DNA of 64,000 nt, from positions 1-64,000 of the forward strand of contig LBWM01000006.1 in assembly GCA_000993615.1 (NCBI GenBank), written 5' to 3'. The stretch's first letter is position 1. Each line of letters opens with the position of its first letter. This stretch comes from Candidatus Peregrinibacteria bacterium GW2011_GWF2_39_17 (GTDB taxonomy: Bacteria > Patescibacteriota > Gracilibacteria > UBA1369 > UBA12473). The notes under the pieces were generated by a model, which did not search any database, had not been told where the DNA came from, and saw only the letters and a program-made list of their open reading frames with translations. Shown here piece by piece: positions 38,865-50,153 of the stretch. The translations under genes were made by a program, and so were the position numbers.

Positions 38865-39410
38865 ATGCCCACAGACTTAACCAAACTTACCCATCTTAGG
38901 GGACTTATTGAAAGCGCTGAAATAAGCATTAAAGCAGCAGGGCGAATTATTGCGGAACTTACTTTAGATAATCCACATGCTAAAAGTGCCAACCAGGATT
39001 TAATAAAAAATCTGTCCGCTAATCCTTTTTTAGCCACCGAAGGAGAGCAAAATATTATTGAGGGTGTTTTTGATGGACAAAACATGATGGGGCCAGATCA
39101 AAAAATCTATCCTGTCCCAGCTAATTATGCCAGTAAATCAAAATTAATCCCGGGCGATATTTTAAAACTTACAATCAAACCCGATGGTGCATTTTTATAC
39201 AAACAAATTGGGCCAATCGAGCGCAAACACGTCACCGGACAATTAATTTATGACGATGGTCAATACAAAGTAGTCACAGATGAAAAAGGTTATAACGTGC
39301 TTTTGGCTTCCATTACTTATTTCAAGGCGAATGTAGGAGATACAATCGCCCTCATTGTTCCTGCTCAAGCAGACAGCGATTGGGGCGCTATTGAACATGT
39401 TATTCCTTAA
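38865..39410 (+). CDS. Conserved-looking unknown protein
   Basis: 181 residues, soluble. An N-terminal helical part (LTHLRGLIESAEISIKAAGRIIAEL) precedes a beta-rich region with unusually distinctive text: GVFDGQNMMGPDQKIYPVPANYASKSKLIPGD, LKLTIKPDGAFLYKQIGPIERKHVTGQLIYDD, and a second similar beta unit. It reads like two OB- or SH3-like barrels. No catalytic residues or membrane segment. Strong promoter upstream. Function unknown, possibly a conserved Patescibacteria protein. Confidence 0.75.
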   Translation: MPTDLTKLTHLRGLIESAEISIKAAGRIIAELTLDNPHAKSANQDLIKNLSANPFLATEGEQNIIEGVFDGQNMMGPDQKIYPVPANYASKSKLIPGDILKLTIKPDGAFLYKQIGPIERKHVTGQLIYDDGQYKVVTDEKGYNVLLASITYFKANVGDTIALIVPAQADSDWGAIEHVIP

Positions 39411-39469: not shown

Positions 39470-40591
39470 ATGACTGACAACACCCCCAACAATCAATCCG
39501 AATCTAGTGCTTTGGAAAACGCCCTTAAGCAAATCCAAAACTGGTTTGTAAGTGGCGATTTTGAAAAAGTTAAACAAGGGTGCAGTGAAGTATTACACAT
39601 TGCACCGAACAACAGCATTGCCCAAGACCTTCTTAAAAAAGCAGAAGAAGCCTTAGTGATGTCTACCTCAACTGCAACGGAAGCAACTCCAGCAATACCA
39701 ATAATGCCAGCAGCAGCGCCTATTTCGGAGCCAATCACGACTGGATCAGAGCTAAGCCACCAAGAGCAAATTACGCCTAAAAGCGACCAATTAATTTCAG
39801 ACCAGCCAAAACAGATTCCAACGACTTCTTATGATCTAGGAATCCCCCCAGACTCAGTTAATCCTATTTCCTCTGTAGCTATTCCTATGCCCGAAGCAGA
39901 GAGCCATCATAAATTGCATTCGTTTTTAGTTAATTTAATAATTATAGGGGGGATTGTTTTAGTGGGTGTTGGTGGAGTTTTTGGCTACCAAGCTTTATTT
40001 GGCAAAAATACGGATAACATTACTAACAATCAAGACAACACACCAGATCAAGTAGCTCAAAATAATCAAAAGCCGACAGATTCTTCCCAAACTCAAGAAA
40101 CTCCGGCAATAGATAAAACTCCAAATTCAATAGATATCGAAGCCACCGAAATGGAAACTCGCAATAACCAACGATTAAGCGACTTAACCACCATTGAGGA
40201 AGCCCTAATCCAATATTACGAAAAAAATCAATCCTATCCTAGCGCGGATGAAGCTAGTACAGTCATGATAGAAGAAGATTTTTTAAGCCAAATGCCAACT
40301 CCTCCCAATGATAACGAGGTCTATTTCTACGCGGTGTATAATAACGAGATAGGAGACAACCAGATTTATATTTTGAGCGCCTATTTTGAAGATGAAAACG
40401 AAGCAACTGAAATTTGGTCAACCGGCGGAAGTACTAACGATTTTACTGATTTTACCGATGTTTCAAAAGATAACGTAACAATCATTAGTCCGAATATGAC
40501 AGAAGATGACTATCTTAAATCGCTAAACCCATCAACAGATACCCCCACAAATCAACCAACCGAAACAGGTGGCAGAGTTCCCCGCAGCTAA
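39470..40591 (+). CDS. Membrane protein: TPR-like N-terminus, pilin-like C-terminus
   Basis: 373 residues. Residues ~14-62 look like one or two TPR-type helices (FEKVKQGCSEVLHIAPNNSIAQDLLKKAEEAL), then a long Pro/Thr-rich linker, one membrane helix at ~148-172 (FLVNLIIIGGIVLVGVGGVFGYQALF), and an Asn/Gln-rich linker. Residues ~230-320 resemble the globular part of type IV pilins (NQRLSDLTTIEEALIQYYEKNQSYPSA...FLSQMPTPPNDNEVYFYAVY). It lies directly before pilT (62 bp), so a pilus-related role is plausible. The pilin-like part has no prepilin leader. Confidence 0.6.
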   Translation: MTDNTPNNQSESSALENALKQIQNWFVSGDFEKVKQGCSEVLHIAPNNSIAQDLLKKAEEALVMSTSTATEATPAIPIMPAAAPISEPITTGSELSHQEQITPKSDQLISDQPKQIPTTSYDLGIPPDSVNPISSVAIPMPEAESHHKLHSFLVNLIIIGGIVLVGVGGVFGYQALFGKNTDNITNNQDNTPDQVAQNNQKPTDSSQTQETPAIDKTPNSIDIEATEMETRNNQRLSDLTTIEEALIQYYEKNQSYPSADEASTVMIEEDFLSQMPTPPNDNEVYFYAVYNNEIGDNQIYILSAYFEDENEATEIWSTGGSTNDFTDFTDVSKDNVTIISPNMTEDDYLKSLNPSTDTPTNQPTETGGRVPRS

Positions 40592-40653: not shown

Positions 40654-41709
40654 ATGGAAAGTATTCGCAAGCTACTTCAAACCGCAATTCAGTATAAGGC
40701 TTCTGATCTTTACTTAACCACCGGAGCCAAACCTATTTTGCGAATTAATGGAGAGTTAATCGCGATTAGTCAGCATCCTGTTTTGGATAAAAAAATAGCG
40801 GAAAATTATTTATTAGAGGTAATGAATGATCGCCTAAAAACATCACTTCAAGAGACTTCTGATTTAGATTTTTCAATTGAGGCAGAAGGGATTGCTCGTT
40901 TTCGGGTTAATATTTTTGTACAACGGAAAGGGATTGGTGGTGTTTTCAGGGTTATTCCGGAAGATCCTCTTAGCCTGGAGGAACTAAAACTGGCACCTCA
41001 ACTTAAAAAATTGACGCATCTAAAGCAAGGTTTAGTTTTGCTAACCGGACCTACCGGCTGCGGCAAATCCACTACTCTGGCTGCGCTGATTAAAGAAATT
41101 AATACTCACCAAAAAAAACATATTATTACCATTGAAGATCCGATTGAATTTATTCATGAAAATGGCCAATCTGTTGTAGAACAACGCGAAGTCGGGACGC
41201 ACACTTCCAGTTTCTCGCGAGCGCTTAGAGCAGCTTTACGCGAAGATCCAGATGTGATTTTAGTGGGTGAAATGCGAGATTTGGAGACTATTTCTTTGGC
41301 TTTAACTGCAGCGGAAACCGGCCACCTTGTTTTTGCTACCCTCCATACCAGCGGAGCCGCAAAATCCGTGGATCGCATTATTGATGTTTTTCCAGCAGAT
41401 CAACAAGCCCAAATCCGCACTCAATTAGCGGAAACACTAGAAGCGATTATCTGGCAAAATTTACTTACAGCAGAAACCGAAACCGTAAACGGGACAAAAA
41501 GAGTCGCAGCTTTGGAAATTTTACTCAAAAATCACGCCATGCAAAATCTAATTCGCAAAGGCTACACGCATCAATTGGATACAATCATTGAAACCGGTCG
41601 CAAGGAAGGCATGCAAACCATGAAACAAGCGCTTGGAGCTCTAAAAGAGCAAGGCTTAATTTCTGAAAAAAGCTATCTCGAATACGCCCCGGAAGAGATT
41701 GACATGTAA
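40654..41709 (+). CDS. pilT: Twitching motility ATPase PilT
   Basis: 351 residues, the usual PilT length. Retraction motor of type IV pili. Seen: N-terminal ASDLYLTTGAKPILRINGEL, Walker A GPTGCGKST (~132-140), EDPIEFIHENGQSVVEQREVG (Asp box), ALREDPDVILVGEMRD (Walker B) and the His box HLVFATLHTSGAAKSVDRIID. The closing AIRNLIR-type part is AMQNLIRKGYTHQL. Other pilus genes are on the opposite strand about 6 kb away. PilB is not in the window. Confidence 0.95.
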   Translation: MESIRKLLQTAIQYKASDLYLTTGAKPILRINGELIAISQHPVLDKKIAENYLLEVMNDRLKTSLQETSDLDFSIEAEGIARFRVNIFVQRKGIGGVFRVIPEDPLSLEELKLAPQLKKLTHLKQGLVLLTGPTGCGKSTTLAALIKEINTHQKKHIITIEDPIEFIHENGQSVVEQREVGTHTSSFSRALRAALREDPDVILVGEMRDLETISLALTAAETGHLVFATLHTSGAAKSVDRIIDVFPADQQAQIRTQLAETLEAIIWQNLLTAETETVNGTKRVAALEILLKNHAMQNLIRKGYTHQLDTIIETGRKEGMQTMKQALGALKEQGLISEKSYLEYAPEEIDM

Positions 41710-42272: not shown

Positions 42273-42491
42273 ATGAAATGCACTTGTTGTCCTGTTCACA
42301 AAATTGCCGGAATCCTGATACTAGTTGGCGCACTTAACTGGGGGCTAGTCGGAGCCTTCAATTTCAACCTTGTCAATGTTTTGGTTGGGGCTTGGCCTAT
42401 AGTGGAAAGAGTCATTTACATCGTAGTGGGACTTGCGGCTATTGCCATGGCTTTTATGTGCCAATGCAAGGCTTGTAAAACAGATAAATAA
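42273..42491 (+). CDS. DUF378 family membrane protein
   Basis: 72 residues with two membrane helices: VHKIAGILILVGALNWGLVGAFNFNLVNVLVG and VERVIYIVVGLAAIAMAF. The LxxxGALNWGLVG stretch is the DUF378 hallmark. Cys pairs flank it: CTCC at the start and CQCKAC at the end, possibly a metal site. Function of the family is unknown. Confidence 0.85.
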   Translation: MKCTCCPVHKIAGILILVGALNWGLVGAFNFNLVNVLVGAWPIVERVIYIVVGLAAIAMAFMCQCKACKTDK

Positions 42492-42583: not shown

Positions 42584-42660
<77 letters not shown>

Positions 42661-42716: not shown

Positions 42717-42745
42717 TTGCTAATTAAGGTTTTTTCTGGTATAAT
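42717..42745 (+). promoter_or_regulatory. Promoter of the VirB2-like gene array
   Basis: TTGCTA (42717-42722), 17-bp spacer, TGG-TATAAT (-10 at 42740-42745), 33 bp before the first gene. Its -35 is only 2 bp from the -35 of the divergent tRNA promoter. Confidence 0.65.
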
Positions 42746-42778: not shown

Positions 42779-43255
42779 ATGTTTACTTGTCAAAAATCAT
42801 TACTAGCTATCTACTTTTTACCATTATTGCTAGGTTTAATTCTCCTTTTCCCGACAATTAGTTTTGCCCAAGCCGATGCCGATATCCCGACCCCAAGCAA
42901 TAGCAACGATAATACGATCCCTTTTGACGCAGAATCACTTAATGATTCCGGCACATTTGACGTGGGCGACATCTTAAGCACCTCTGGCCAAGATCAAACC
43001 TATCTTAATGATGAGCATAATTCCCCAATCGTAGCTTTTATTTTAGATGTTATAAATTTTGTAACCAGAATTATTGGCGCCATTGCCATGATAATGCTTA
43101 TTTTAGGCGGACTGATGATGATTGTTTCTGAAGGTGATGACACCCGTCTCCAAAAAGGTAAAGGTCTTTTAGAAACCGCAATTTTTGGCTTAATTATCGT
43201 TATGTTTTCTTACATTATCGTTCGTTTTGTCCAATCAATTTTTTACCTTCAATAA
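42779..43255 (+). CDS. VirB2-like (T4SS pilin type) membrane protein, array gene 1
   Basis: 158 residues. Signal peptide (KSLLAIYFLPLLLGLILLFPTISFAQA), a polar Asp/Ser/Asn-rich region, then two membrane helices: VAFILDVINFVTRIIGAIAMIMLILGGLMMIVSEG and LLETAIFGLIIVMFSYIIVRFVQSIF, joined by GDDTRLQKGKG. This two-helix layout with a basic connector resembles VirB2/TrbC-type pilins and the Patescibacteria T4SS_pilin family. First gene after the promoter. Four more genes with the same plan follow without gaps over 12 bp. Confidence 0.75.
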   Translation: MFTCQKSLLAIYFLPLLLGLILLFPTISFAQADADIPTPSNSNDNTIPFDAESLNDSGTFDVGDILSTSGQDQTYLNDEHNSPIVAFILDVINFVTRIIGAIAMIMLILGGLMMIVSEGDDTRLQKGKGLLETAIFGLIIVMFSYIIVRFVQSIFYLQ

Positions 43256-43256
43256 T

Positions 43257-44021
43257 ATGCAAAAAATGCCTTTAGCTTTTGCAAAATCATTTTTAATAAC
43301 CAGTTGGGTGGGATTAATGTTGCTACTATTGCCCCTTTCCGCCTTAGCCCAGGAAACCACATCTTCACCTGAAGCTACATCTACGACTACTCCTGCAACG
43401 ACCACCCCTGATGGGGACAAAAGATACGTCACAAATACGACCTACAGCGGCTCGAATTGCGACAGCGTGGCCAACAAAAAAACTTTTGAGGAATACACCA
43501 AGGGAGTGGCCGAAAACGGCTCCCCTTATATTGCAGTGGAAATGGCTGAACCATTATTAGGTATTCAGCAAAAAATCCAAACTGGTAGTATGACCATTAG
43601 TGAAGTAGCTTGGAAATTTAATTGTACGGTATCAGATACCACGGTTACTTATTCTGATGGCTCCGAGGAACATCTTAAATCTCAAAATATAAGTTTTTAT
43701 GTTCCCTATGAAAAAAACCCTTCTTGTCCGGCCCCACCCGGAGTACAGTGCTCTTTAGTGCAAATTTTAAAAGGGACATCCGGTTCTGGACTCATTAAAA
43801 CCTATATCGCGATTATTTATCGCTGGGCAGCCGGCGTAGTCGGGATTGTGGCGGTTTTAGTGATCGTGCTTAGTGGCATTCAAATTTCGCTGGACCAAGG
43901 CGGAGGGGAAAGTGTTAGCGCTTCGAAGACTAGAATTATGCAGTCTTTAGCTGCTTTAGCAGTTTTATTTTTGTCAGCCCTTATTTTGTACACTATTAAT
44001 CCTACTTTTTTCCAAAAATAA
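43257..44021 (+). CDS. VirB2-like membrane protein, array gene 2 (longest)
   Basis: About 254 residues. Signal peptide (FLITSWVGLMLLLLPLSALAQ), a Thr/Ser/Pro linker, an extracellular domain of about 130 residues with Cys at GSNCDSV, FNCTV, SCPAPPGVQC, then the two-helix module (LIKTYIAIIYRWAAGVVGIVAVLVIVLSGIQISL, and SLAALAVLFLSALILYTINPTF) with connector GGGESVSASKTRIM. The added Cys-bearing domain sets it apart from the other four. ATG at 43257 starts 1 bp after the previous stop; an ATG at 43266 is also possible. Confidence 0.7.
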   Translation: MQKMPLAFAKSFLITSWVGLMLLLLPLSALAQETTSSPEATSTTTPATTTPDGDKRYVTNTTYSGSNCDSVANKKTFEEYTKGVAENGSPYIAVEMAEPLLGIQQKIQTGSMTISEVAWKFNCTVSDTTVTYSDGSEEHLKSQNISFYVPYEKNPSCPAPPGVQCSLVQILKGTSGSGLIKTYIAIIYRWAAGVVGIVAVLVIVLSGIQISLDQGGGESVSASKTRIMQSLAALAVLFLSALILYTINPTFFQK

Positions 44022-44022
44022 A

Positions 44023-44565
44023 ATGCCTATCACTAGAAAACAAAAACTGCTTATCTTTTACCTACTTTTTACTTTAATAGGTATTTATAAAATTGCTGCT
44101 TCGAATCACACCATCGAACCATTAATTTTAATCGTATCAGCTCAATCCACAACCTCGACCGATTCGTCATCGACAGATAAAGGCGGCACTATCCCCATCA
44201 TTCCCAAACCGGAATTATTGCCTGGCCCTCCAGAAGAAGCGAATCAAAATGCAGTCCAAACCTATTTCCGAGACAACGCCGTTGCCGGCTTTATTCAGGG
44301 ATTTTTAGGGTTAGTAGCCGGACTTTCACTCATGGGCTTACTAGTGTCCGGCATTCGCTTTATTGTGGCTTATGGAGAGGAGGAAGGCATTACCGCAGCA
44401 AAAAAAACAGCTACCTGGTCAGTGGTTGGTTTTGTAATCACCTTACTCGCACTAGCTATTGTTTCAATTATTAACACCTTAGCTTTTCCTAAAAGTGATA
44501 TTGTTAATCAAACCGGCGAATACACAAAAGATGCCCAAGAAAATATTCAATACGAAAATATTTAA
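44023..44565 (+). CDS. VirB2-like membrane protein, array gene 3
   Basis: 180 residues. N-terminal hydrophobic stretch (LLIFYLLFTLIGIYKIAAS), a Ser/Thr/Pro linker, then the two-helix module: VAGFIQGFLGLVAGLSLMGLLVSGIRFIVAYG and ATWSVVGFVITLLALAIVSIINTLAF, joined by EEEGITAAKK. Starts 1 bp after gene 2. Confidence 0.7.
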   Translation: MPITRKQKLLIFYLLFTLIGIYKIAASNHTIEPLILIVSAQSTTSTDSSSTDKGGTIPIIPKPELLPGPPEEANQNAVQTYFRDNAVAGFIQGFLGLVAGLSLMGLLVSGIRFIVAYGEEEGITAAKKTATWSVVGFVITLLALAIVSIINTLAFPKSDIVNQTGEYTKDAQENIQYENI

Positions 44566-44574
44566 TCTCCTTTT

Positions 44575-45042
44575 ATGAGCCTTTTTCTAAAAAAATTAAT
44601 TATTTATTTCAGTGCAAAAATCATTTTTATCTTTGTAATTTTGAATATTTTTAATTTTGGACTTTCAGCTTATGCGCTTAACTCCGACAAAACTTGCGAT
44701 TCTATTAATCTTACGGCTGACGAAAAATTAGAATGTTTATTAGGGACCGAAAAAGAACTAATACAGGGATCTCCCCAAGGAAAAGCCACTAATACAAATC
44801 TCCCCAGTGGAGACCTTATGGGGGATTTTTTACCTTTCTTTATTAACACTGCCCTTGCCGTGGCGGGAACACTAATTTTTACTGCTTTTTTGTATGCCGG
44901 ATACCTGCTAGTCTTTGTGAATAACAACGAAGAACAAATAGAGAAAGCAAAAAAAATCCTTATTTATTCCTTAATTGGAGCCGCGGTTATGGCTATCTCT
45001 TACGCTGTAATTTACGGCATTGCTCACTTAGACCTTGATTAA
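44575..45042 (+). CDS. VirB2-like membrane protein, array gene 4
   Basis: 155 residues. Signal-type N-terminus (FSAKIIFIFVILNIFNFGLSAYA), a short polar region with two Cys (KTCDSINLTADEKLECL), and the module FFINTALAVAGTLIFTAFLYAGYLLVFV and LIYSLIGAAVMAISYAVIYGIA joined by NNEEQIEKAKK. The C-terminal helix pattern (IGAAVMAISYAVIYG) is close to that of gene 5. Confidence 0.7.
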   Translation: MSLFLKKLIIYFSAKIIFIFVILNIFNFGLSAYALNSDKTCDSINLTADEKLECLLGTEKELIQGSPQGKATNTNLPSGDLMGDFLPFFINTALAVAGTLIFTAFLYAGYLLVFVNNNEEQIEKAKKILIYSLIGAAVMAISYAVIYGIAHLDLD

Positions 45043-45053
45043 AAAAAATCTTT

Positions 45054-45539
45054 ATGAAAAAAATCTTTCAAAATTTAACTTTAAAATGTCTTACCCTAAT
45101 CTGGCTATTACTTTTTTTAAGCCCCTGCCTAGTTCAAGCGGCCACTTCTATCCCTTCCGATTTACGCCCAGGATATGCCCCCCAGGGCTTTGAAGAGCTT
45201 TATGGTGGCAATTCAGATCCAGCCCAAAATTTTGATGACCGCTCGGTTACTTATATTTTAGCTGATATTGCGGTAGTCCTGCTCCAGATCGCTGGGGTTT
45301 TGACAGTTTATTTTATAATTACCAATGGATTTAACTATGTAAAAGCGTTTGGCCAGGAGGAAGAAATTCAAAAAGCAAAAAAAGGCCTTACCTGGGCAAT
45401 TATTGGCCTTTTGGTAGTACTAATGTCTTACGCCATTGTACAAAATATCCTTAAAATTACGCTTAGTGTTGATACACCAACTACGACTAATACAACCACG
45501 ACAACTACGCCAAGTACCCCGCCTGCGACAGCACCCTAA
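45054..45539 (+). CDS. VirB2-like membrane protein, array gene 5
   Basis: 161 residues. Signal peptide (CLTLIWLLLFLSPCLVQAA), polar region, then VTYILADIAVVLLQIAGVLTVYFIITNGFNYVKAFG and LTWAIIGLLVVLMSYAIVQNILK joined by QEEEIQKAKK, with a short Thr/Pro tail. Last gene of the array; metG follows convergently. No VirB4, VirD4 or other secretion ATPase is nearby. Confidence 0.7.
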   Translation: MKKIFQNLTLKCLTLIWLLLFLSPCLVQAATSIPSDLRPGYAPQGFEELYGGNSDPAQNFDDRSVTYILADIAVVLLQIAGVLTVYFIITNGFNYVKAFGQEEEIQKAKKGLTWAIIGLLVVLMSYAIVQNILKITLSVDTPTTTNTTTTTTPSTPPATAP

Positions 45540-45625: not shown

Positions 45626-47149
45626 CTATTTCAATATCTCTACCCTTGGGAACAATATTTCCCCCTTTTTAGTTTGCGTACCTGGCTTTAATCGCCCCCA
45701 TTCACGCAAAGCTAAACCCTCATTTTCTAACTCCTCAACTCCAAGTTGCTCGCGTATTTTTTGCGAAGTTTGCGGAATGAAAGGCTCTAGCATCCAACTT
45801 AATTGACGTAATCCTTCCAAAAGGACATACATCACCTCATTCAATTTTTCTTTTTCCCCTGCTTTTTCCAAAGCCCAAGGCTTTTCCTCCTCAATATAAC
45901 GATTACCGGAATTAACGACTGCCCCTATCTCTTCCAAAGCTTGTTTAAGATCAAATCTTACCATAAATTGATCCACTGCTTGCCACTTTTGCTGCATAAA
46001 GTCTCTGGTTATTTGTCGATTACCTTTGATTGGGATTTTATTCTCATAATATTTTTGATTCATGGCCATCACCCGACTCACTAAATTTCCTAAATTATTA
46101 GCCAAATCCGAATCATACACAATTTTAAATCTTTCCTGGTTAAAATCACCATCCTCGGTAGTGGGAATTTCTTTTAATAAGTAGAAACGCAAAGCATCAA
46201 TCCCATATTGTTCAGCTACCACAAAAGGATCCACCACATTACCTAAAGATTTACTCATTTTTTGCCCATCAGAGGTAATGAAACCATGAATTAAAATTTG
46301 ATGAGAAGGTCTTAACCCTGCGGAAAGTAACATCCCCTGCCACATATTTGATTGTTGTCTTAAATTATCTTTACCCGCAATTTGGACACCTGGCCAACAA
46401 GCGGCAAAATTTTCCTTATCTTCTGGCCATCCTAAAGTGGAAATATAATTGATTAAAGCATCAAACCAAACGTACATAACATGTTCGTCATCATCGGGGA
46501 CTGGAATTCCCCAAGGCATTTTATCCTTAAGTCTCGAGATACTAAAATCCTCCAAACCTTTTTCTGTAAATTTTTTAACCTCCATCAAACGATGAGCAGG
46601 CAAAACAAAATCCGGCCTCTCTCGATAAATTTCCAAAAGTGATTTTTGGTATCTTGAAAAACGAAAAAAATAATTTTCTTCCTCCATGTTTTCAATTTCC
46701 AAATTGGGATGCACCGGACATTTTCCTTCTTCGGATAATTCCGAATCAGTTTTTTCTAATTCGCAGCCTACGCAATACTTAATTTTATATTTTTTCTTGT
46801 AAATATCACCGTTTTTAGCGCAACGCTGCCAAAATTCCTGTGCAGCCTTAACATGATGCTCGTCAGTGGTGCGGACAAAATTGGTATAAGAAAGATTTAA
46901 GGCTTGTTTTAAGGCATCAAATTTAGCAGCGTACTCATCACAATAGGCCTTTGGATCTTGTCCATTTTCTTGCGCTTTACGATAAATCTTGAGCCCGTGT
47001 TCGTCAGTGCCAGTGTTGAAAAACACTTTCTTGCCAAGTAGGCGTTGATAGCGGGCAATAGCATCCGCTTGAATAATTTCCAAAGCAAAACCAATATGCG
47101 GCTCGGCATTCACATAAGGAAGGGTAGTGGTAATATAAAAAAAACTCAT
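45626..47149 (-). CDS. metG: Methionyl-tRNA synthetase
   Basis: 507 residues, class I. Seen: the HIGH-type motif in NAEPHIGFALE, a single zinc-knuckle-type insert with CVGC and CPVH, and KMSKS in DGQKMSKSLGN. The C-terminal EMAP/Trbp111 tRNA-binding domain of longer MetRS is absent, giving the short form. Convergent with the VirB2-like array (86-bp gap). Confidence 0.97.
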   Translation of the reverse strand: MSFFYITTTLPYVNAEPHIGFALEIIQADAIARYQRLLGKKVFFNTGTDEHGLKIYRKAQENGQDPKAYCDEYAAKFDALKQALNLSYTNFVRTTDEHHVKAAQEFWQRCAKNGDIYKKKYKIKYCVGCELEKTDSELSEEGKCPVHPNLEIENMEEENYFFRFSRYQKSLLEIYRERPDFVLPAHRLMEVKKFTEKGLEDFSISRLKDKMPWGIPVPDDDEHVMYVWFDALINYISTLGWPEDKENFAACWPGVQIAGKDNLRQQSNMWQGMLLSAGLRPSHQILIHGFITSDGQKMSKSLGNVVDPFVVAEQYGIDALRFYLLKEIPTTEDGDFNQERFKIVYDSDLANNLGNLVSRVMAMNQKYYENKIPIKGNRQITRDFMQQKWQAVDQFMVRFDLKQALEEIGAVVNSGNRYIEEEKPWALEKAGEKEKLNEVMYVLLEGLRQLSWMLEPFIPQTSQKIREQLGVEELENEGLALREWGRLKPGTQTKKGEILFPRVEILK

Positions 47150-47207: not shown

Positions 47208-48134
47208 CTACTCCGTCTGATACAAGGCGAAATCATAAACCGGCAAAGCGGAATCTCTCTGCACTTGGACATCAAGACTTTGCAGAGCTCCTCCCAAAAT
47301 CCCATTTCCTTCAATTAAAGCATATTCACAAGCAGTTTTTTCTGGGACAGAAAGCTGTATTTTGAGCTCGTTTAATTCCGGCAATTGGACAAGTGGATCC
47401 GCTTGATTCGCCAACTCCACCACATTCGTAAGAATTAACGTATTGAATTGATGATTTTCCAAAAATTGAATAATCGGGTAATGGGGATCATTGAAAAATG
47501 TACCACCACTTTGGCCTTCGTAAAAGTTAGCATCATCTGATTCCTCAAGATGATTTGGCGACATACCGCTATCATAAGGCAAAATTCCACTAATTGACTG
47601 TGTGGCTCCTCCTCTTATTCCTAAAATTTTCCAACGGAGTACATTCCCGTTGACTCCTTTAAATTGAGCCTCTGAACGATCCACAAAATAAGCTAAATCA
47701 AAATCCTTAATTTCGACTCGACCTAAATTTTCATCCCAGCGAAAAAGTGACCAAGAAACCGATTCCTGTAAACCCAAAGATCGCCATTCTTCCGGACGAT
47801 GAAGACAAGGCACTCTTTCCTCTTGAGCTATTATTTTGTAGGTGGCCTGAGCCTGATTTTGAGCTCTAAAATTAAAGGACTCTTCTATTTCGAATCCAGA
47901 TAAATTATTTTCATGATAATACAAACCGCGTTCGATACCGGCCTCGGCCGCGAAATATGATTTTCCGGCATCAACAACATTGCTCTCAACTCGAATTGAA
48001 TCCACAATTATTTTGCTCATTCCTAAACCCAAAACCACTAAAAATCCCATTAAAAGCAAGGCAATAATCAAAGCACTGGCTTCTGTAGCCATCACCTGCC
48101 TAGATAAGGATCTTTTTTTAATTAAATGGTTCAT
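47208..48134 (-). CDS. PilX-like pilus assembly protein
   Basis: 308 residues. The N-terminus (ASALIIALLLMGFLVVLGLGMSKIIVDSIRVESN...YFAAEAGIERGLYY) has the PilX_N pattern: one membrane helix followed by a conserved AEAGIERG. The remaining ~230 residues are beta-rich with few Cys. PilX-type minor pilins are found with PilV/PilW in type IV pilus loci, which fits the gene order here (6 bp downstream of the GspJ-like gene). Last of a seven-gene block. Confidence 0.75.
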   Translation of the reverse strand: MNHLIKKRSLSRQVMATEASALIIALLLMGFLVVLGLGMSKIIVDSIRVESNVVDAGKSYFAAEAGIERGLYYHENNLSGFEIEESFNFRAQNQAQATYKIIAQEERVPCLHRPEEWRSLGLQESVSWSLFRWDENLGRVEIKDFDLAYFVDRSEAQFKGVNGNVLRWKILGIRGGATQSISGILPYDSGMSPNHLEESDDANFYEGQSGGTFFNDPHYPIIQFLENHQFNTLILTNVVELANQADPLVQLPELNELKIQLSVPEKTACEYALIEGNGILGGALQSLDVQVQRDSALPVYDFALYQTE

Positions 48135-48139
48135 GGTAA

Positions 48140-48847
48140 TTATTTAAAATTAACACTATAAACACGGGATGAAACTGTGGTTTGTAACTGAATTTGAGAT
48201 TTATCAAGATCTAATAAACTTGAAATTCCCTTAGCTTGAATCATCATATTAACACTAGGTTGATACTGATTGGAGCTTTCAGCGTAGGTATAGGGACTTT
48301 TTACAGGACTAACAACAAATTGAATTTTAGTGAGTTGAACTTTATCAGTTTGAAAAACTTGAAACCCCCGAGCATAGCCTGGTGCCATTATCCAGGAAGA
48401 AGCCACGCTATCTCGAACTAATTCGAGTACGGAAAATGACCCATTTTTAAATTTATAAACAGTTCGTGTTAAGCCATTAGCGGAAATTAAAACCAAAGTA
48501 TCAGTATAGGTATTTTGAGGGCCAAGCTGAATACCTAAGCATTCTAAAAGATTAGAACTGTAATCCGGGCGTCCATCGGCCCCGTCCTCATAACAATCAT
48601 AATCAATAGTATAGCGCCGAATATCTTGCGTAACCTTGTCCACTAAAAATCGAGCCTCGGCATAAACTTTACGCATTTCCACGGCCCCTCTAAGCGCTCG
48701 GCTTAAAAAAAGATAACTAGTAGAAGCGATCCCAATAAAAATAGTAAAAATTACCATTCCCACAATAAGTTCCACTAGGGTAAAAGCAGGAAGATTAAGC
48801 GCCCTTTGAGGCCTTTTAAAAAGATTTTTTAAATTTCTAAAACGCAT
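48140..48847 (-). CDS. Type IV pilin-like protein (GspJ/PilW type)
   Basis: 235 residues. Prepilin leader of 20 residues ending LNLPA, then FTLVELIVGMVIFTIFIGIAS, the N-methylation-type hydrophobic helix with Glu5. The residue before the cleavage site is Ala and not the usual Gly. The C-terminal domain is beta-rich. Minor pilin role inferred from the locus. Confidence 0.82.
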   Translation of the reverse strand: MRFRNLKNLFKRPQRALNLPAFTLVELIVGMVIFTIFIGIASTSYLFLSRALRGAVEMRKVYAEARFLVDKVTQDIRRYTIDYDCYEDGADGRPDYSSNLLECLGIQLGPQNTYTDTLVLISANGLTRTVYKFKNGSFSVLELVRDSVASSWIMAPGYARGFQVFQTDKVQLTKIQFVVSPVKSPYTYAESSNQYQPSVNMMIQAKGISSLLDLDKSQIQLQTTVSSRVYSVNFK

Positions 48848-48871: not shown

Positions 48872-49462
48872 TTAAATTGGCCCTTTGCGCCAATTAGCTA
48901 AATCAGTGCTGACTTCTATCTTTTTTTCTACCCCGTGATCCTCCCAGAAAACAACGGCTTTTACCTCAAACCAATCGTGCGCATCAGGGTCATTGCTAAT
49001 TTGCAAATAGCGGTGAAAATTAGATGGGACACTACTTGCGAAAGAACTGTCATGCAGATAAAAATTATGTCCAAAGTTATCTTCTACCCTGTAAAGTAAG
49101 CTATTAACACTGGCTTCATTTTCCTTATCGCTAAAATAAGCTAATTTCCAAGGAGAACTGGAATTACCCCTACTTGGCAAATAATCAAGCACATAAAAAC
49201 CATCTTGATCAAAATTCGTTCCCCAAAAAGAAGCACCAGTATTATAGGTATAATTTTGAAGCCAATTGCTATCACGCATGTTTCTCATCCCTTCGAGTCC
49301 TTCCTGCGCCAAATAATAAGCAGTAAGCCGGTTGATATTAGCTTGATTGGCATTAATGGAACTCAAAGTTAAGCTGGTCATGGCTGTTAAAACCACGCTA
49401 AGAATAGCGACGCCAATTATGACTTCGATAAGAGTAAAGGCTGAGTTTTTTCTGATTTTCAT
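48872..49462 (-). CDS. Type IV pilin-like protein (GspI/PilV type)
   Basis: 196 residues from the chosen start MKIRKNSA, followed by FTLIEVIIGVAILSVVLTAM, the N-terminal pilin helix, then LTAYYLAQEGLEGMRNMRDSNW typical of PilV/GspI. Ala precedes the cleavage site. In-frame ATGs further upstream (49483, 49525) would lengthen the leader and the last would overlap the previous gene. Confidence 0.82.
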   Translation of the reverse strand: MKIRKNSAFTLIEVIIGVAILSVVLTAMTSLTLSSINANQANINRLTAYYLAQEGLEGMRNMRDSNWLQNYTYNTGASFWGTNFDQDGFYVLDYLPSRGNSSSPWKLAYFSDKENEASVNSLLYRVEDNFGHNFYLHDSSFASSVPSNFHRYLQISNDPDAHDWFEVKAVVFWEDHGVEKKIEVSTDLANWRKGPI

Positions 49463-49505
49463 ATCTATTTTAGAAGCTAGCATATTTGGGATTCCAAGTG
49501 AAGAA

Positions 49506-50153
49506 TTAAAATGGGCCAGGAGCAATTACAAAATCCGCAGTAGCCGGATATAAAGTAACAATCTTAGCTAAAGCCGGACTGTTTTCTCCTCCGTAATTAA
49601 TACCCATTACTATTTTTTCAACATCCGAAAGTTGAACCATATTTATTCCTTCGGTTTTATAAATATTAACTTCTCCGGCAGGCGGCATAAATAAAATCCA
49701 AAAAGGTAAATTAGGTGGATATTTGATGGTTTTATCCAGGGAATTAACCGAATCCCAACCTGAAAATTGGACTTCGTTAGCAAATGCCAAGCTCCGATCT
49801 GTAAATTCCTGACTTAAATCGCACTCTTTTTGGGGCTCATCCCAATTAAAATAGATTAAAGCAGGATTCTTTTTTTCTTGTAACTTTACCCCCCAACACT
49901 TAGTCAGAGTTTTCCCCTGCATATCGATGGTTCCGGTGGTTTGAGTTCGGACTCTGGCATCTTCAAATAAAGAAGCTAATTGCTCGATACTTACTTCCAA
50001 TCTTGCTTTTTGAATAGACCGACCATAATCAATTAAGGCGGCTCCACCTAAAATAGCCAAAATGGTCATTACCAAAATGAGTTCAATTAAAGTAAAAGCC
50101 GGAATAGCTTGAGATTTTGAATTAAATTTTGACGATTGCGAAGATATTTTCAT
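49506..50153 (-). CDS. Type IV pilin-like protein (GspH/FimT type)
   Basis: 215 residues. A leader of 19 residues (MKISSQSSKFNSKSQAIPA) then FTLIELILVMTILAILGGAALIDYGRSIQKARLE, a class III signal; the residue before Phe is Ala. The globular part has two Cys. The FTLIELILVMTILAILG core is closest to FimT/GspH-like pseudopilins. Confidence 0.82.
   Translation of the reverse strand: MKISSQSSKFNSKSQAIPAFTLIELILVMTILAILGGAALIDYGRSIQKARLEVSIEQLASLFEDARVRTQTTGTIDMQGKTLTKCWGVKLQEKKNPALIYFNWDEPQKECDLSQEFTDRSLAFANEVQFSGWDSVNSLDKTIKYPPNLPFWILFMPPAGEVNIYKTEGINMVQLSDVEKIVMGINYGGENSPALAKIVTLYPATADFVIAPGPF

Follow-up and report, generated by a model that had tools for sequence, protein, structure and literature searches.

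Five VirB2-like proteins encoded in tandem beside type IV pilus genes of Candidatus Peregrinibacteria belong to separate orthologous groups

Tandem arrays of pilin genes are already known from Patescibacteria (PMC12102498, PMC10633639). Candidatus Southlakia epibionticum encodes divergent VirB2-like pilins within its T4SS cluster, and these pilins are essential (PMC10633639); Ca. Southlakia epibionticum ML1 has six sequence-divergent VirB2-like pilins (PMC12857230). More broadly, 441 VirB2 arrays of 2-11 genes each have been reported from Patescibacteria, and within the class Gracilibacteria, TrsD and VirB3 are mostly unlinked to virB4 and VirB6 is scarce or absent by profiles (PMC12102498). 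Another point of reference is Sulfolobales, where Ups type IV pili join cells and the VirB2/VirB4-type Ced system moves DNA (PMC9905601).

We examined a window of 64,000 nt from the genome of Candidatus Peregrinibacteria bacterium GW2011_GWF2_39_17 (contig LBWM01000006.1, positions 1 to 64,000). Five tandem open reading frames on the + strand, which we call g1 to g5, span positions 42779-45539 of this window. The intergenic gaps are 1, 1, 9 and 11 bp, so the initial annotation was right to describe five consecutive genes with gaps of 1-11 bp. By hydropathy, an N-terminal hydrophobic segment is followed in each protein by a polar stretch and then by two hydrophobic segments that flank a charged loop, which agrees with the signal segment and pair of joined helices that had been proposed for all five. 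The two-helix hairpin of g1 (42779..43255, 158 aa) was placed by HMM at about 43028-43234. g2 (43257..44021, 254 aa, with an ATG start) has its hairpin at about 43794-44000, ends in the C-terminal signature LYTINPTFF, and carries an extra ectodomain. g3 (44023..44565, 180 aa) has the signature IPKPxLLPGP and a hairpin at about 44272-44475; in g4 (44575..45042, 155 aa), the hairpin is at about 44818-45024. Finally, g5 (45054..45539, 161 aa) has the signature DLRPxYAP, a Thr-rich tail, and a hairpin at about 45246-45452.

The array had also been assigned a single promoter. A consensus scan did find a promoter-like site on the + strand 33 bp before g1 (TTGCTA-17-TATAAT, 42717..42745), with a TG before the -10 element (an extended -10). 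A single promoter is plausible, but the same scan found just 4 promoter-like sites upstream of the array, as compared to 7.9 in shuffled sequence, so the number of sites does not support the assignment.

All five proteins match PF18895 (Pfam T4SS_pilin). In a six-frame search of the genome, the E values for g1 to g5 were 7.4e-9, 6.8e-5, 1.2e-7, 2.6e-4 and 2.3e-10, respectively. In a protein scan, g1 (34.1 bits), g3 (28.9 bits) and g5 (39.8 bits) exceeded the curated cut-off of 26.6 bits; g2 (20.8 bits) and g4 (20.2 bits) did not, yet their matches were significant (E 4e-4 and 6e-4), and they fall in the same tree as the other hairpins despite these scores. The five proteins are thus related by descent far beyond what chance would give, as the initial annotation had argued from aligned loops and helices, and PF18895 together with the two-helix hairpin supports the VirB2-like layout that it described. 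The VirB2/TrbC family, which it had also named as having this layout, gave weaker scores: no protein reached the cut-off for PF04956 (27.9 bits) in the protein scan, and the best scores were 22.1 for g1 and 16.5 for g5.

To compare the positions of the array across genomes, we used a tree of 69 columns that includes 85 hairpins from 11 genomes. Each of g1 to g5 corresponds to one side of a branch, so that g2, g4 and g5, for example, each have a clade of their own. Support (bootstrap/SH-aLRT) was 94/83 for g1, 99/99 for g2, 94/87 for g3, 99/96 for g4 and 97/84 for g5; with only 69 columns, the deeper branches are unresolved. In 462 of 520 comparisons between genomes, the best match occupied the same position, while shuffled labels gave a mean fraction of 0.21 and a maximum of 0.33. 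Thus, every array position is a separate orthologous group in the order. When hairpins from other classes were labelled with profiles of g1 to g5, the labels were mixed, so with present data the five groups are not traceable outside the order.

These groups bear on the idea, proposed in PMC12102498, that the pilins of such arrays are interchangeable variants that allow the surface or antigens to vary towards different hosts, in the manner of Bartonella Trw. The members of this array are tandem paralogues of low identity (23% on average), and the same pattern was read there as host-range versatility. Yet position by position, identity to the sister genus is 62-80%, and none of the 11 genomes in the tree shows recent duplication or gene conversion between positions. 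Together with the positional groups, this implies that the duplications are older than the order and that the positions have not been homogenised, which argues against interchangeable variants. The order of the genes is also kept across many families: a search of named genomes with g2 gave 56 loci, of which almost all belong to Candidatus Peregrinibacteria, Peribacteria or Gracilibacteria; 44 of the 56 have five hairpins, with the exact g1-g5 order in 42. The five-gene set is therefore conserved in related genomes. In 11 loci, g3 and g4 form a single open frame, as do g4 and g5 in one locus. Such fused neighbours would act as one chain, and the g3-g4 fusions hold those two subunits together, which is also at odds with free exchange. 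With positional orthology disfavouring it, we consider antigenic variation very unlikely for this array. Within the order, PF18895 was found in all 31 genomes searched, with 13-16 domains in those that are at least 90% complete.

The second protein stands apart from the others. The initial annotation gave it an extra Cys-bearing domain, and the copy in the window indeed has four Cys in this region (residues about 55-173, 43419..43775, + strand). In an AlphaFold2 model of g2 (pLDDT 78, pTM 0.63), the region is predicted to be a beta-rich unit that precedes the hairpin, whose helices are residues 176-212 and 217-247. Of 53 orthologues, 51 have an even number of Cys in the ectodomain, one has an odd number, and the remaining one has none. 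An even number fits disulphides outside the cytoplasm, and if the ectodomain is outside, then the Lys/Arg loop of the hairpin is inside. This is the established topology of VirB2, whose Lys/Arg loop lies on the cytoplasmic side. No match to a solved pilin emerged from comparisons with known structures. At E <= 0.001, Foldseek against PDB matched neither the g2 model nor a model of a g3-g4 fusion, and profile searches with g5 and g2 against PDB sequences found nothing relevant. The best row for the g2 model from VIA-align was a Tiam2 chain (Z 8.0, 70 residues, 2.2 A), but this alignment covers the hairpin only and looks like a common two-helix arrangement. The g3-g4 fusion model was poor (pLDDT 65, pTM 0.35), so it does not support any packing of the subunits.

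Across the order, the array is typically flanked by pilT and metG, with type IV pilus genes alongside. In the window, pilT (40654..41709, + strand; TIGR01420, 437 bits) is upstream; it is upstream and on the same strand in 29 of 41 evaluable loci. A putative metG (45626..47149, - strand; the name was read from the sequence) is convergent downstream, and so is its homologue in 42 of 44 evaluable loci. Beyond it are three pseudopilin-like genes on the - strand (47208-48134, 48140-48847 and 48872-49525) with prepilin-type N-termini in their translations, and 28 of 35 evaluable loci have pseudopilin homologues there. In this genome, a small DUF378 membrane protein (42273-42491) and a tRNA-Ala (42584-42660, minus strand) are also encoded between pilT and the array. 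Upstream of pilT are genes for a 181-aa protein (38865-39410), which has no match in Pfam or NCBIfam, and for a protein with a weak match to T2SSG (39470-40591); many relatives have homologues of both in the corresponding position.

That the array is unlinked to virB4 in this order, and that the genes constantly next to it belong to the type IV pilus, counts against assigning it to a T4SS. We considered whether g1 to g5 might instead serve the type IV pilus as accessory membrane components, or serve a secretion or uptake step that depends on it, with the locus reflecting that role. Besides the site between pilT and metG near pseudopilins throughout the order, a further hairpin gene adjoins pilB in this genome. 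However, the translations of g1 to g5, inspected by eye, do not contain a prepilin-type N-terminus (of the GF-T/S-L-x-E type) and have Sec-type signal segments instead. Also, hairpin genes occur near prgI-trsD-virB4 in other Patescibacteria (including 1135 assemblies in PMC12102498).

Patterns of gene loss across the phylum also speak against a part of the pilus alone. In 192 genomes, VirB4 was found in 177 and PF18895 in 187. Three of the five genomes that lack PF18895 (G056, G100 and G120) also lack VirB4 (Fisher p 0.0036, uncorrected for relatedness). Their assemblies are contiguous (1, 7 and 2 contigs), and all three retain PilT and PilB, so the hairpin family is not present whenever the pilus is. 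They represent three families, two of which include members with both VirB4 and PF18895; in the case of G056, which is a single contig, sisters from the same genus carry both. The other two genomes without PF18895 do have VirB4 (G031, with five VirB4 matches, and G047), and their pilins may be of another kind or very divergent. Conversely, 12 genomes have PF18895 without VirB4: three belong to this order and their assemblies are broken at gyrA/gyrB, and the other nine are mostly fragmented. Overall, the co-loss points to a link between the hairpin family and VirB4, not the pilus, and it disfavours a role purely in the type IV pilus, which we consider unlikely. A link to VirB4 alone leaves the constant position at the pilus locus unexplained.

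Does this genome encode a T4SS of the MPF-FATA-like kind found in Patescibacteria? The initial annotation reported neither VirB4 nor VirB6 in the window, and indeed, neither has a match over the cut-off within its 64,000 nt. Its further statement that the array lacks a secretion system is not borne out at the level of the genome. PrgI/VirB3 is encoded on contig 3 (C3:135133-135402; PF12666, E 1.7e-13, over the cut-off), and directly after it is a gene for a TrsD-like protein of 271 aa. The latter has no Pfam match, and aligning it with VirB4 by hhalign gave an empty result (too few sequences). Its homologues in G212, G198 and G135 (E 1e-31 to 1e-37) are encoded directly between prgI and virB4, and hairpin genes lie 1-8 kb away in these genomes. 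The scattered system in our genome is to be expected, given that TrsD and VirB3 have been described as mostly unlinked to virB4 in Gracilibacteria (PMC12102498).

A genome-wide search of this assembly gave no VirB4 match over the cut-off, but 27 of 31 genomes from the order have VirB4. In the four relatives that we examined, virB4 adjoins gyrA, and wherever we retrieved the sequence on both sides, gyrB is the other neighbour. We found neither gyrA nor gyrB in this assembly (G000) at E <= 1e-50, and the same is true of G015; in G004, gyrA sits at a contig end and gyrB is missing. As a positive control for these searches, the queries were 66-70% identical to the gyrB and gyrA of relatives. Since gyrase is expected in every genome, we infer that this block is absent from the assemblies and not from the organisms. 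VirB4 probably went undetected here for a technical reason, because the gyrB-gyrA site falls in a gap in the assembly. More generally, because gyrA, gyrB and virB4 go missing together in G000, G015 and G004, calls of VirB4 absence in such MAGs are unreliable: apparent absence from a metagenome assembly can be a gap at gyrA/gyrB.

As for VirB6, no PF04610 match was found by profile in this genome. The genome does have 15 T4SS_pilin hairpin domains: five in the array, six in two proteins with three hairpins each, one in a protein with PKD repeats, and three in single genes. One of the single genes, on contig C11 (L017:3652-4068), is the one that adjoins pilB. A second hairpin locus, on contig C5 next to secE/nusG/rplK (L014:9344-16233), encodes the two proteins with three tandem hairpins and the protein with PKD repeats, which has 1571 aa and one hairpin. 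This locus is also present in G001, G014 and G004. It is possible that the three-hairpin proteins are a VirB2-derived substitute for the undetected VirB6. Such proteins, with three hairpins per chain or a hairpin plus PKD repeats, would also suit a fixed membrane complex. This raises the alternative that the hairpins stay in the cytoplasmic membrane as a heteromeric pore or a VirB6-like platform, without ever forming an extracellular fibre. The T4SS of monoderms usually lack pili, which fits such a pore. So do the lack of detectable VirB6 in Gracilibacteria by profiles (PMC12102498) and the common N-terminal relationship of VirB2 and VirB6 (PMC9905601). On the other hand, signal segments and long N-terminal parts on the outside fit pilins too. 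Our computed data separate a pore from a pilus in no respect, and we consider a pore or platform without any fibre quite unlikely.

Instead, g1 to g5 are probably specialised subunits that together form a pilus or channel of the VirB2 type, hetero-oligomeric and driven by VirB4. The hetero-oligomeric fibre or channel that the initial annotation considered possible is thus plausible. The proteins share descent, positional orthology and a fixed order, with g3-g4 fusion in some relatives, and T4SS parts are encoded elsewhere in the genome. Each subunit would have a signal segment, an N-terminal part on the outside, and a membrane hairpin with its charged loop on the cytoplasmic side. The five would be inserted through Sec and taken up by an inner-membrane machine of VirB4, PrgI (VirB3) and TrsD. 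From all five, the same machine would build a single hetero-oligomeric structure, either a pilus or a channel, in contact with a host cell. With its disulphide-type ectodomain, g2 may be an exposed or tip-like subunit. That the array is located among genes for the type IV pilus suggests that attachment through pili is used together with the T4SS, by analogy with Ups pili and Ced in Sulfolobales. A stricter version, with an obligatory division of labor among five pilins (g2 as a disulphide head, g3 and g4 as a pair), cooperation with the type IV pilus, and three-hairpin proteins in place of VirB6, is doubtful.

A lineage with five orthologous pilins in a strictly conserved order would build its filament or channel with subunits in distinct positions, and for the VirB2 fold this would be a novelty. 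To our knowledge, conjugative-type pili of known structure are all built from one pilin. The stoichiometry and order of assembly would bear on how Patescibacteria feed on or signal to other bacteria, because such pilins are essential for life on host cells in the only species tested (PMC10633639).

In having a signal segment, two helices and a charged loop, g1 to g5 resemble the conjugative VirB2/TraA pilins, and g1 and g5 match TrbC (PF04956) weakly; they differ in that there are five paralogues with long N-terminal regions and the TrbC scores are below the cut-off. The Ced and Ted systems also have VirB2-like two-helix pilins (CedA1/TedC) and a VirB4-like ATPase (PMC9905601). However, they are archaeal and have one pilin per system, and we found no sequence match to them here. 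The array of Ca. Southlakia epibionticum ML1 is closer: there too, a Patescibacterium with a T4SS of the PrgI/TrsD/VirB4 type encodes divergent VirB2-like pilins in tandem. That array lies inside the T4SS cluster, whereas our array is inside a type IV pilus cluster and has five position-specific orthologous groups, the g2 ectodomain and g3-g4 fusions. As far as the papers cited here show, the positional orthology, the placement at the pilus locus, the fusions, the g2 ectodomain with an even number of Cys, and the phylum-wide co-loss with VirB4 are new. The arrays surveyed in PMC12102498 belong to the same families (PF18895/PF04956) and have about 25% identity within an array. There, host versatility was proposed by analogy with pilin variation; here, positional orthology is a reason to doubt that hypothesis for these arrays, and it argues for a division of labor in Peregrinibacteria-type genomes.
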